This document shows positions 41,764 through 45,498 of a stretch of DNA of 64,000 nucleotides, one piece after another (within the stretch, counting starts at the first letter, position 1; every line of letters starts with the position of its first letter). A program made the position numbers and the translations under genes. The DNA comes from Streptomyces sp. IMTB 2501 (lineage in GTDB: Bacteria > Actinomycetota > Actinomycetes > Streptomycetales > Streptomycetaceae), in the NCBI RefSeq assembly GCF_001953885.1, contig NZ_MQUS01000010.1, positions 186,001-250,000 on the forward strand, read 5' to 3'. The notes beneath the pieces were generated by a model that did no database searches, was not told the origin of the DNA, and saw only the letters and a list, made by a program, of their open reading frames with translations.

Positions 41764-42255
41764 ATGACCACAGTTTTGCTGAATACCTCCGCCGGGGACA
41801 TCACCCTGGAGCTCGACGAGTCGAAGGCGCCGAAGACGGTGGCGAACTTCATCGAGTATGTCCGGTCCGGTCACTACGACGGCACCATCTTCCACCGGGT
41901 GATCTCCGGTTTCATGGTGCAGGGCGGCGGCATGACCGCGGACATGAAGCAGAAGGCCGCACCGCAGCGGGTGGAGAACGAAGCCAAGAACGGCCTGCAC
42001 AACGACAAGTACACGGTGGCGATGGCGCGGACGTCGGACCCGCACTCGGCGAGCGCGCAGTTCTTCATCAACACCAGCGACAACGATTTTCTGAACTACC
42101 CGGGCCAGGACGGCTGGGGCTACGCGGTGTTCGGCAAGGTCGCCGCGGGCACCGAGGTGGTGGATGCGATCGACGGAGTGCGCACCACGTCCCGAGCCGG
42201 GCACGGCGATGTGCCGGTGGAGCCCGTGACGATCGTGTCCGCGCAGTTGGTCTGA
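41764..42255 (+). CDS. ppiB: Cyclophilin-type peptidyl-prolyl isomerase
   Basis: The 163-residue protein is a single cyclophilin domain without a signal peptide, so it acts in the cytoplasm. The active-site blocks are IFHRVISGFMVQGG (Arg and Gln of the catalytic site), ASAQFFINTSDNDFLN and YAVFGKVAAGTEVVD. It speeds prolyl cis-trans isomerisation in protein folding. Two strong hairpins follow the stop codon. It appears to be a single-gene unit. Confidence 0.96.
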   Translation: MTTVLLNTSAGDITLELDESKAPKTVANFIEYVRSGHYDGTIFHRVISGFMVQGGGMTADMKQKAAPQRVENEAKNGLHNDKYTVAMARTSDPHSASAQFFINTSDNDFLNYPGQDGWGYAVFGKVAAGTEVVDAIDGVRTTSRAGHGDVPVEPVTIVSAQLV

Positions 42256-42381: not shown

Positions 42382-42634
42382 CTGTCCTGGGCGGCCGCAA
42401 TCGCGGAGTCCACCGCGACAGCCCAGCCGCAGGTCACCCTCGGCGCCCGCCGATCGAGCAGGGTGCCGGCCAAACGCCGTACTGCACACGGCAGTTGGGC
42501 GGCATCAGCCCGTGATCCGCTCCTGGGGGGATCCTGTGACGGTTGGCCCGACGGCTCCTGGGGCTGATCGCCACTGAGTACACTCTGTGACCCGTACGGG
42601 ACCAGGCGTGTCGGTGTGGGCAGGGAGTGGGGCG

Positions 42635-44623
42635 GTGCCGGTGACACCGGAGGCCGGTTACAGGGTCGGGGGCCGGTATCAGCTGCAGGAGCCGATCGGC
42701 CAGGGCGGGATGGGCGTCGTCTGGCAGGCCCGGGACGAACTGCTGGACCGGCGTGTCGCGGTCAAGTGCGCCCGCCCGGACGACGCCAAGGCCGCCCAGC
42801 GGCTGAAGAAGGAAGCGCGGTACGCCGCGCGGCTGCACCACCCCAACGTCGTAGCCGTCTTCGACTACGTCGCCGAGGGCGACGCCTGCTGGATCGTCAT
42901 GGAATACGTGCCCTCGCGCAGCCTGGCCCAACTGATGCACGAGCGCGGCCCGCTCTCCCCGCAGGAGGTCGGCTCGATCGGCAGCCAGATCGCGGCCGCG
43001 CTGGCGAAGTCCCATGGCGAGGGCGTGGTGCACGGCGATGTGACGCCGGAGAACATCCTGGTCACCGATGACGGTGTGGCTCGGCTGACGGACTTCGGGA
43101 TCGCGCGGGCCCTGTGGAGCGAGGTCACCCAGACGGCCACGCACACCACGACGGGCACGGTGCGCGGCAAGCCCCGCTATCTCGCCCCCGAGGTGGCCAA
43201 GGGCAAGGCGCCGGACGCGAAGGCCGATGTCTTCTCCCTCGGCGCCGGCCTGTTCGCGGCGGTCGAAGGCCGCTCGCCCTACGGGGAGTTCCAGCACGTC
43301 ATGGGCTATCTCGCCAGAGCCCTCGAAGGACACGTGGACGCCCCGCAGCAGGCGGGCCCGCTCACCGCACCGCTCACCGCCCTGCTGCAGGTCGAGCCCT
43401 GGAACCGCCCGGACGCCGCCGAGGCACGCAGCCTGCTCACGCGCGCCGCACCGCCGCCCACGCACATCCAGGAATACATCCAGGAGCATCAGAGCCAGAG
43501 CCAGAGCGAGGAGTCGGCGACGCGGGCGACGCTGCGGCTCCGCCCTACGCAGGCCCTGTCGTCCCTCACGCTGTGGCTGCCGCGGAAGCTGCGTGGCCGG
43601 CTGACCGGCCGGCGCCGCGCGCTGACGGTCATGGCGGCGGCCCTGGCCGTAGCAGGGCTCGCAATCGGGCTGCTCGCTCTCTTCGGTCTCTGGCCGTTCG
43701 GGCACAAGGGCGGCACCGGGCACCGCTCCGACGCCAAGCCCTCGACGACGACGCAGGCTCAGGCCGGTGCCCTGGGCGACGCCCCGAGCGCCGATCCCTG
43801 CAAGGTGATGGACGCCGCGTCGCTGAGCCGTTTCGGTCACACGGAACTCGCCCCCGCCTACGGGCAGTTGAACCGGTGTGACGTACTGGTGCTGAACTCC
43901 GGCGGGGGCGAGATCGCCGACGCCGAGGTCGACTTCAGCAATGATCTCCAACAGTTCGACAGCAGCGTGGCCGTCAGGAAAGTCAGCAACGTCGAAGTCG
44001 CGTCCCTCAAGCGCGACGGGGACCAGTGCCTGCGGTTCATCACGACCCCCGACCGCAAGCAGATCGTGGTCAGCGGCAAGCGGGACGGAGCCGGCGCGCC
44101 CGACCCGTGCGCCCTGTCGGACGCCGCCGTCGACTACGCGGTCACGGTGCTGGACAAGGGCCCGGTACCCCGGCGTTCGGCGGCGTGGCCCGCGGACTCC
44201 CTGGGCCGGCTGAACGCCTGCGCGGTGCTGGACCCGGCCACGCTGAAGAAGGTCCCCGGCCTCGCGCAGCGGCCGAAGGACCGGGGCTTTGCCGACTGGA
44301 CGTGTGACTGGGCCAGCCCCGACGGTCAACGCGCCTACGTGCAGTTGCAGTTCACGCAGGACAACGACCTGTCCAACAACGGACGGCCCGCGCGGGTCGC
44401 CGGAACGACCAGCTATGTCTCCCCCAAGGAGGAGGGGGACGACAGCTGCGTCGTCTACACACCGCACCGTACGTTCACGGACTCCGTCGGCGAGCCGACC
44501 ATCGAGCTGTTCCGGCTGACTCTTCAGCAGCAGGGGGAGCAGAACGCCACGGTGTGCGACGGCGCCAAGTCGCTCGCGGGCGCCGCCGTACAGAACATCG
44601 CGAAGAGGCTGCCCGCCAAATGA
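42635..44623 (+). CDS. Transmembrane Ser/Thr kinase (non-RD) with paired extracellular sensor domains
   Basis: With the GTG at 42635 (GGGAG 7 bases upstream) the protein has 662 residues. The kinase domain (about 15-270) shows the glycine loop IGQGGMGVVW, K44 in VAVK, the catalytic loop HGDVTPEN (D134, Gly in place of the usual Arg), DFG at 152-154 and LAPEV. A ~60-residue Gln/Ser-rich and basic linker leads to one membrane helix (about 329-351). The extracellular part (about 370-660) contains two repeats of a DUF3558-like unit, each with paired cysteines (DPCKVMDAASLSRFG...NRCD and NACAVLDPATLKKVPG...WTCD). No PASTA repeats are present. The start codon and a GTG at 42587 are both possible. 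The next gene encodes an FHA protein, the likely phosphothreonine reader. Confidence 0.92.
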   Translation: MPVTPEAGYRVGGRYQLQEPIGQGGMGVVWQARDELLDRRVAVKCARPDDAKAAQRLKKEARYAARLHHPNVVAVFDYVAEGDACWIVMEYVPSRSLAQLMHERGPLSPQEVGSIGSQIAAALAKSHGEGVVHGDVTPENILVTDDGVARLTDFGIARALWSEVTQTATHTTTGTVRGKPRYLAPEVAKGKAPDAKADVFSLGAGLFAAVEGRSPYGEFQHVMGYLARALEGHVDAPQQAGPLTAPLTALLQVEPWNRPDAAEARSLLTRAAPPPTHIQEYIQEHQSQSQSEESATRATLRLRPTQALSSLTLWLPRKLRGRLTGRRRALTVMAAALAVAGLAIGLLALFGLWPFGHKGGTGHRSDAKPSTTTQAQAGALGDAPSADPCKVMDAASLSRFGHTELAPAYGQLNRCDVLVLNSGGGEIADAEVDFSNDLQQFDSSVAVRKVSNVEVASLKRDGDQCLRFITTPDRKQIVVSGKRDGAGAPDPCALSDAAVDYAVTVLDKGPVPRRSAAWPADSLGRLNACAVLDPATLKKVPGLAQRPKDRGFADWTCDWASPDGQRAYVQLQFTQDNDLSNNGRPARVAGTTSYVSPKEEGDDSCVVYTPHRTFTDSVGEPTIELFRLTLQQQGEQNATVCDGAKSLAGAAVQNIAKRLPAK

Positions 44624-44694
44624 GCCGCCCCACACAATGACTCTGCATGGGCAATGAGCCTGGCCGGACGACAGACCCGCCCCGGAATACGGAC

Positions 44695-45498
44695 ATGACA
44701 CAGACACCAACCGGCATGACACGGACACCAACCCGAGTTCTCCCCGCCACCCACGGCAGCCTGGCGCGCGGCGTCTCCGCGCCGGTGCCAGGCACGCTCT
44801 TCGCCCTCGCGCTCACCGGCGGCATCACACTCCGGCCGGGGGAGGGGCGCGAGGTCCTGTTCGGCCGTAACAGGCCCGAGGTCCACGTCTGTCTGGGCGA
44901 GGACGATCCGCGCGTCAGCCGCTACCAGGGCACGCTCACGCATCGGGACGGCCGGTGGTGGCTGAGCACCAGCGGGCAGCTGCCGATCCGCTGCCCCGAG
45001 GGCCGGCTGTTCTTCCGCGGCGAGGAACCGCTTCCGCTGTCCACCGGCTACACCCCGCTGTTCGTCCAGGGTTCGCGGGGACGCGAGCACCTGTTCGAGG
45101 TCTTCGTCACCGGCGCCGACGACGAGCCTCCGCGCCCCCGGCACACGGACACCACCCGCCCGCCGCGGGTGTGGGTGCTGACCGAGCAGGAGAAGCTGGC
45201 CCTCGTCGTACTCGGCCGGCGCTATCTGCTGCACGAGCCGAAGCCGCAGCCGCTGACCTGGAAGCAGACGGCCGCTCAGCTCGTCGAGTCGCAACCGGGG
45301 GCCGGCTGGACGGACAAGCGCGTCGAGCACATCGTCAACGCTGTGCGCACCCGGCTGTCCCGCGATGGCGTGCCGTATCTGACCCGCGAGGAGGTCGGCG
45401 AACCGGTCGGCAACGCCCTGAACGACCATCTCCTGCGCGCCCTGCTGGCCTCCACGACGCTCGTCCCGATGGACCTGGCCCTCGTCGAGGCGACCTGA
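44695..45498 (+). CDS. FHA domain protein with C-terminal winged-helix region
   Basis: The 267-residue protein (ATG at 44695; one at 44647 is possible, neither with a strong ribosome site) has an FHA domain at about residues 30-125. EVLFGRNRPEVHVCLGEDDP, then RVSRYQGTLTHRDGRWWLST, give the GR, SR and typical strand residues; the His after SR is Gln here. The C-terminal ~110 residues (LTEQEKLALVVLGRRYLL to HIVNAVRTRLSRDG) look like the DNA-binding-like domain found in actinobacterial FHA regulators. It follows the kinase by 71 bases on the same strand, so it is the likely substrate or docking partner of the kinase. Confidence 0.88.
   Translation: MTQTPTGMTRTPTRVLPATHGSLARGVSAPVPGTLFALALTGGITLRPGEGREVLFGRNRPEVHVCLGEDDPRVSRYQGTLTHRDGRWWLSTSGQLPIRCPEGRLFFRGEEPLPLSTGYTPLFVQGSRGREHLFEVFVTGADDEPPRPRHTDTTRPPRVWVLTEQEKLALVVLGRRYLLHEPKPQPLTWKQTAAQLVESQPGAGWTDKRVEHIVNAVRTRLSRDGVPYLTREEVGEPVGNALNDHLLRALLASTTLVPMDLALVEAT

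Follow-up and report, generated by a model that had tools for sequence, protein, structure and literature searches.

How might a bacterium carry a cue from its surface to its DNA without a histidine kinase and a receiver domain? The question is raised by two adjacent genes in a stretch of 64,000 nucleotides (nt) from Streptomyces sp. IMTB 2501 (contig NZ_MQUS01000010.1, positions 186,001 to 250,000), the whole of which we call the window. The first gene encodes a membrane Ser/Thr kinase with two extracellular DUF3558-type repeats and the second, 23 nt away on the same strand, a protein that joins an FHA domain to a predicted helix-turn-helix (HTH) domain; Pfam found neither a histidine kinase nor a receiver domain in the two proteins. 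We consider it fairly probable that this gene pair is an analogue, built on a Ser/Thr kinase, of a two-component system of sensor kinase and response regulator. To our knowledge, few dedicated routes in bacteria connect an extracellular sensor with a transcription factor by way of a Ser/Thr kinase; here, the idea becomes directly testable through the conservation of an adjacent pair among soil bacteria and through an invariant candidate docking Thr.

In the mechanism that we propose, the tandem DUF3558 ectodomain, braced by structural disulfides, would sense a cell-surface cue, possibly a ligand, and the kinase, presumably active although of the non-RD kind (without the Arg that precedes the catalytic Asp in RD kinases), would autophosphorylate T165 in its activation loop. 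Phosphorylated T165 would then dock the FHA domain of the neighbouring protein, which the kinase may in turn phosphorylate, and docking or phosphorylation would alter DNA binding by a C-terminal LuxR-like HTH, perhaps at the promoter of the pair itself, and with it a putative regulon. An earlier note on this DNA had likewise suggested a direct pathway from outside to DNA without a two-component system; the conserved pair, its anatomy and the lack of Pfam matches to a histidine kinase or receiver agree with that suggestion, whereas phosphorylation, FHA binding and DNA binding keep the conditional form given here. The features concerned, all on the + strand, are the following.

42575-42588: promoter-like element TGAGTACACTCTGT with a -10-like TACACT, conserved upstream of the kinase in relatives
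42635-44623: membrane Ser/Thr kinase gene, 662 amino acids from GTG 42635 (Pfam Pkinase and DUF3558 matches, relatives aligned)
42677-43447: kinase domain, with Lys, Glu, Asp, Asn and DFG retained
43031-43054: non-RD catalytic loop HGDVTPEN, read from sequence
43127-43129: activation-loop Thr, T165 (counted from GTG 42635), Thr in 34/34 aligned kinases, candidate FHA docking site
43622-43699: membrane segment, about 26 hydrophobic residues after an Arg run, read from sequence with approximate limits
43772-44158: DUF3558-type repeat 1, extracellular, four cysteines (profile matches, cysteine alignment)
44177-44602: DUF3558-type repeat 2, extracellular, four cysteines (Pfam match, profile matches, cysteine alignment)
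44647-45498: FHA-HTH protein, 283 amino acids, with ATG 44695 as an alternative start
44785-45117: FHA domain, residues 47-157, by fold match; G73, R74, S91 and R92 invariant in 31 aligned rows, NG motif absent
45160-45495: C-terminal helical HTH-like domain, residues 172-283 (predicted model, structure matches)

Conservation of the gene pair

A scan of GTDB genomes, limited by its method to fairly close relatives, found the FHA-HTH gene at 43 loci, from Streptomyces to Amycolatopsis, Glycomyces and Promicromonospora. At 40 of these 43, a kinase-like open reading frame (ORF) lies within 2 kb upstream on the same strand, with a median of 93.5 nt from its end to where the FHA-HTH profile match begins. 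Three of the 40 linked ORFs are HGG pseudokinase-like, one is broken, and one (L034, S. himastatinicus) extends across a run of N; a kinase-FHA fusion at this last locus was rejected, because the single ORF crosses that run. Among the unlinked loci, the ectodomain part of the kinase is found upstream at the contig end in L028, and merely ~2 kb of upstream sequence is present in L030. Clustering of neighbouring ORFs placed the kinase/FHA cluster in 42/44 neighbourhoods and any other family in at most six (≤6/44), so that a shared context fails to explain the pairing.

The FHA-HTH family is uncommon in Streptomyces, with matches in 57 of 392 genomes (a few being marginal or partial), and across the phylum it was met in 2/396 genomes, the genome of the window included, when only six candidates were scored per genome. 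Within the 392 Streptomyces genomes, 17 of the 19 FHA genes of the window type have an ectodomain within 5 kb upstream. A second subfamily, represented once in the genome of the window (48% identity), also lies close to kinases: these occur within 2 kb, in various orientations, in 51 of 63 genes (59 regions, excluding one match, a repeat in G638, and weaker fragments), as against a chance linkage that we put at ~3%, given 42 kinase matches over 10 Mb.

Several loci show further features. For instance, the second-type gene is flanked by two kinases, HRD upstream and a convergent HCD, at L084, L089, L092, L094, L096, L103, L105 and L124; at L084 the HRD kinase carries a weak Septum_form match and the HCD kinase a DUF3558. 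The loci L038, L039 and L041 share a MoxR-type ATPase gene further upstream, according to ORF readings, with an intervening transglutaminase-type ORF at L039. The own-genome paralogue L047 (contig 18) is divergent from an HRD kinase and lies near a large ATPase-type gene with a VSGTVVVGSHNTV-like stretch, which we take to resemble predicted conflict systems. In the window, part of an ORF just upstream of the kinase (41764-42255) reads as a cyclophilin-type peptidyl-prolyl isomerase, and in the clustering of neighbouring ORFs it is shared only with S. alanosinicus L032.

The FHA-HTH protein and its candidate targets

Pfam matches the FHA domain of the window protein weakly (E 0.024; 15.5 bits, cut-off 20.7), and at E ≤ 1 it names this domain alone; BTAD was not found. 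The predicted fold is nevertheless that of an FHA domain, as the earlier note had it, with a Z score of 11.9 to 6c4u (106 residues, 2.2 Å) and of 10.0 to EmbR (2fez, 98 residues), and with GarA and OdhI among the close folds. The GR and Ser of the phosphothreonine site (G73, R74 and S91) are invariant in 31/31 rows, and the domain may bind phosphothreonine. Among our alignments, A1 comprises the window, L002 and 29 loci, and A3 the window, L002 and 22 loci, while A5 and A6 hold 21/34 rows.

The C-terminal domain is modelled with confidence (predicted local distance difference test, pLDDT, of 93) as all-helical, with no strands and no wing. The winged HTH of the earlier note was thus rejected, whereas the DNA-binding-like region that it had noticed stands. 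The best structural matches are the LuxR-type domain of VqmA (Z 8.6, 73 residues, 2.2 Å) and the C-terminal domain of DosR (Z 6.4, 65 residues, 23% identity); those ranked below are mostly DNA-binding domains, and Lys and Arg abound in the presumed recognition helix. At the sequence level, weak Pfam matches occur among the A3 members to HTH_SUN2 (6/24, best E 0.0039) and HTH_31 (one, E 0.027), with none in the window protein, whose HTH-like domain is not matched by the Pfam LuxR-type model either. Comparison of A3 with one NarL-type HTH by hhalign gave a probability of 0.1, a test of little power because proteins read as PadR-, TetR- and sigma-like scored alike.

A number of findings weigh against a kinase/regulator pair of the kind proposed. 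The HTH Z scores are close to the noise level stated by the tool for helical folds, Foldseek alone yielded no match below E 0.001 for the C-terminal domain, and neither Pfam nor a PDB sequence search names this domain in the window protein; for these reasons we regard the model as likely to be an HTH, and the LuxR type as tentative. In the FHA alignment the canonical NG motif is not seen, and the His of the SxxH motif is Gln in 21/31 rows, including the window, and His in 10. For EmbR, the FHA regulator of Mycobacterium tuberculosis, phosphorylation in vivo is disputed and was not seen under normal growth (PMC9239209, in part). The pairing also has its exceptions: the kinase reading frame is broken at L037, the partner is pseudokinase-like (HGG) at the three Saccharothrix loci L038, L039 and L041, and at L033 (Labedaea) the FHA gene stands in a locus without a kinase. 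Likewise, for 12/63 second-type FHA genes no kinase lies at up to 2 kb, and three of these genes are close to a contig end; L090, L125 and L131, also without a kinase at that distance, adjoin ectodomain fragments. Conversely, 18/73 ectodomain matches in the genus (≥190 bits) have no FHA-HTH match within 5 kb, and none appeared in the regions read; 14 of the 18 contain a full kinase domain of the window type, and one of these 14 (L175) stops at the end of its contig. Such a kinase can therefore exist without a neighbouring partner, and the pairing is not obligatory.

The uncertain identity of the C-terminal domain leaves room for the FHA protein to be a phospho-dependent adaptor or inhibitor, as we take GarA to be, with a helical domain that binds protein and not DNA. 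The missing Pfam and PDB names, the modest structural matches and the presence of GarA and OdhI among the close FHA folds agree with this; but DNA-binding HTH domains dominate the structural matches and the presumed recognition helix is Lys/Arg-rich, and we hold an adaptor to be unlikely, if worth keeping in mind.

If the FHA-HTH protein is instead a regulator, its targets might include the region upstream of the kinase. This gene could be counted from the first GTG (ORF 42587-44623); however, GTG 42635 appears the better start because of a Shine-Dalgarno-like GGGAG close upstream and the promoter-like TACACT at 42579-42584. TACACTC or TACTCTC occurs in 24/26 kinase upstream regions, nearly all from Streptomyces (window copy at 42579-42585), and TGAGTACACTCNGT has a single occurrence in its own genome. 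A GTGA-N6-TCAC palindrome precedes 10/26 kinases (shuffled mean 0.1) and might serve as an operator for the FHA-HTH protein; we treat it as a lead and no more, because the pattern was picked from many, the sequences are related and it is absent from the window. The Streptomyces loci that bear it are L005, L006, L008, L010-L013, L015, L017 and L023, where it lies ~18 bp before TACACT in those measured by eye.

The kinase and its sensor

The kinase has a single membrane segment and matches Pfam Pkinase with E 2.9e-44. As the earlier note had reported, it has HGD for HRD and PASTA is absent, with none among the nine Pfam families listed at E ≤ 1; the NCBIfam PASTA-kinase model reaches 234.3 of 450 bits and covers the kinase part only. 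In the loop HGDVTPEN, Gly replaces the Arg of HRD and Thr the Lys two residues past the Asp, so that this is not an RD kinase, although the catalytic residues of Hanks-type kinases are all in place. Indeed, Lys, Glu, Asp, Asn and DFG are invariant in 34/34 aligned DUF3558 kinases, in which the position of the HRD Arg is Gly in 29 and Arg in five. Alignments A2 (kinase) and A4 (ectodomain) comprise the window and 33 of the 43 loci; L028, L030, L032, L033, L034, L037, L038, L039, L041 and L046 were omitted because they are truncated, split, gapped or broken, or lack a DUF3558 kinase.

The activation-loop T165 is conserved in all of these kinases and by its position falls, we assume, in the T-x-T motif that is the phosphorylation site of PknB and PknA. 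A juxtamembrane S-x-T-x-[RW]-L motif was rejected as the docking site because, being present in only 15/34 kinases, it is a weaker candidate than this Thr. The feature that we find most interesting is that the Thr has been kept despite the loss of the Arg that usually holds its phosphate, for which FHA docking would be one explanation.

This non-RD state is exceptional in the genome of origin: among 30 of the 42 kinase matches, those that were read, 29 kinase loci have HRD in the main kinase and the window kinase is the sole HGD, with one further neighbouring ORF reading HLD. In a wider set of 155 kinase rows, some repeated (L001-L003, L048-L079, hits below 100 bits, short ones and unreadable loops omitted), the kinases with DUF3558 comprise 40 HCD, 36 HGD and seven HRD (76/83 non-RD), and those without it 62 HRD and 10 others. 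A tree of 115 of these rows, after removal of near-copies, is a quick and unrooted one with many open forks. In it, one branch (Shimodaira-Hasegawa-like approximate likelihood ratio test, SH-aLRT, 97) divides the rows in two: the 53 on one side all lack DUF3558, and the 62 on the other carry it in 60 cases, the remaining two being L034, with its ectodomain in the N run, and L122, on a very long branch. A single change of ectodomain, if these two rows are set aside, and a single change between HRD and HCD/HGD suffice, while the HGG, HLD and HQD rows require three more. The loss of the Arg in DUF3558 kinases looks derived, because all five Arg-bearing kinases of the alignment belong to genera other than Streptomyces. 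The group also offers a natural experiment on how a kinase behaves once the HRD Arg is lost and the activation-loop Thr kept, with one change on the tree between HRD and HCD/HGD.

A kinase of this type might also be weak or regulatory, with another (RD) kinase supplying the phosphate and the ectodomain protein acting mainly as receptor or scaffold. This would suit the 9/51 linked second-type genes that have an HRD and an HCD or HGD kinase both within 2 kb, as well as the HGG partners in Saccharothrix; against it stand the invariance of the catalytic residues and the 27/51 linked genes with HCD kinases alone at that distance, and we judge it quite improbable.

DUF3558 (PF12079) matches the window kinase with E 3.3e-7 and 30.9 bits, below the Pfam cut-off of 34.1, and appears at E ≤ 1 in 32/34 ectodomains of the family (best E 4.7e-16). 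By hhalign, the two halves of the ectodomain are copies of one domain (probability 93, E 2.7e-7), and each has four cysteines, which bears out the two cysteine-bearing repeats described in the earlier note. The PknH sensor family was rejected, as 0/34 ectodomains match PknH_C at E ≤ 1, and the ectodomain profile found no match among PDB sequences. In the literature searched, the DUF3558 sensor family is almost unstudied, and the term was met in one paper only, which judged by its listing concerns mouse meiosis.

Across 103 distinct ectodomains, three of them from proteins without a detected kinase domain, none of the eight cysteine positions holds Cys in fewer than 100; the exceptions are an Arg at the last cysteine in two, and two rows are cut. 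This near-invariance fits structural disulfides, which probably stabilise the fold. The thiol-disulfide redox sensor suggested in the earlier note, for which the eight cysteines, four per repeat, were the attraction, is very improbable, since conservation of this kind, kinase-less proteins included, is expected of extracellular disulfides that stabilise a fold.

The three proteins with the tandem ectodomain, all eight cysteines and no kinase domain found are encoded at L173:6024-8129, L174:6020-7873 and L180:6055-7548 (minus strand), and because of them the ectodomain seems to be a reusable sensor module. Those of L173 and L174 open with a region that looks like an HTH by eye, where Pfam names none.

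We tentatively, and with considerable doubt, extend the analogy with two-component systems to a separate class, in which a non-RD kinase with a tandem DUF3558 sensor signals to an FHA-HTH regulator. The loss of the Arg would have freed an invariant phospho-Thr from self-activation for docking, and the sensor would be a swappable input module, also used by the kinase-less proteins of the three loci.

Comparison with known systems

We found no description of the present kinase/FHA-HTH pair in the literature searched, which mostly leaves out subscription journals. Nearest in logic is PknH-EmbR of M. tuberculosis, where a Ser/Thr kinase gene adjoins that of an FHA regulator; PknH, we assume, carries a membrane sensor. 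EmbR is an FHA-containing transcription factor, and its FHA domain is required for interaction with, and phosphorylation by, PknH (parts of PMC4601284 and PMC9239209). Its domain order is OmpR-type winged HTH, BTAD and FHA (same sources), whereas in the window regulator the FHA domain is N-terminal, the HTH is C-terminal and unwinged, and BTAD was not found by Pfam. Moreover, embR sits upstream of pknH (PMC9239209, in part) and in the window the order is reversed, with the kinase first, while the PknH ectodomain family, PknH_C, has no match in the 34 ectodomains of the window type. The window regulator is therefore not an EmbR, from which it differs in its DNA-binding domain, in showing no BTAD and in gene order.

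In the PknQ-MupFHA system of Mycobacterium ulcerans, the FHA protein is both binding partner and substrate of a nearby kinase; its conserved Arg and Ser take part in the binding, as do activation-loop phospho-residues of PknQ (PMC4238996, in part). MupFHA keeps all five canonical FHA residues, unlike the window domain, which lacks NG and has Gln for the SxxH His, and the term 'DNA binding' does not occur in the text of that paper. More generally, FHA genes cluster with Ser/Thr kinase genes in M. tuberculosis (PMC1262709, in part).

The pairing of FHA with a LuxR-type HTH is by itself not new, because a 2012 census counted FHA+LuxR proteins in Rhodococcus and ascribed them to the ancestor of Rhodococcus and Nocardia (PMC3466318, in part). 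By description, this subfamily with FHA fused to a LuxR-type HTH would resemble the window protein, if the HTH-like domain of the latter is of that type; the part of the census consulted has no FHA+LuxR entry in its rows for S. avermitilis, S. coelicolor and S. griseus, and does not mention kinase neighbours.

The predicted layout of the window regulator recalls, finally, the receiver-LuxR (REC-LuxR) regulators of the NarL/DosR type, which have an N-terminal phospho-signal domain and a C-terminal LuxR-type HTH, and whose DosR domain is among the structural matches of the modelled C-terminal domain. In comparison with those systems, FHA would take the place of the receiver, and a Ser/Thr kinase that of the histidine kinase.

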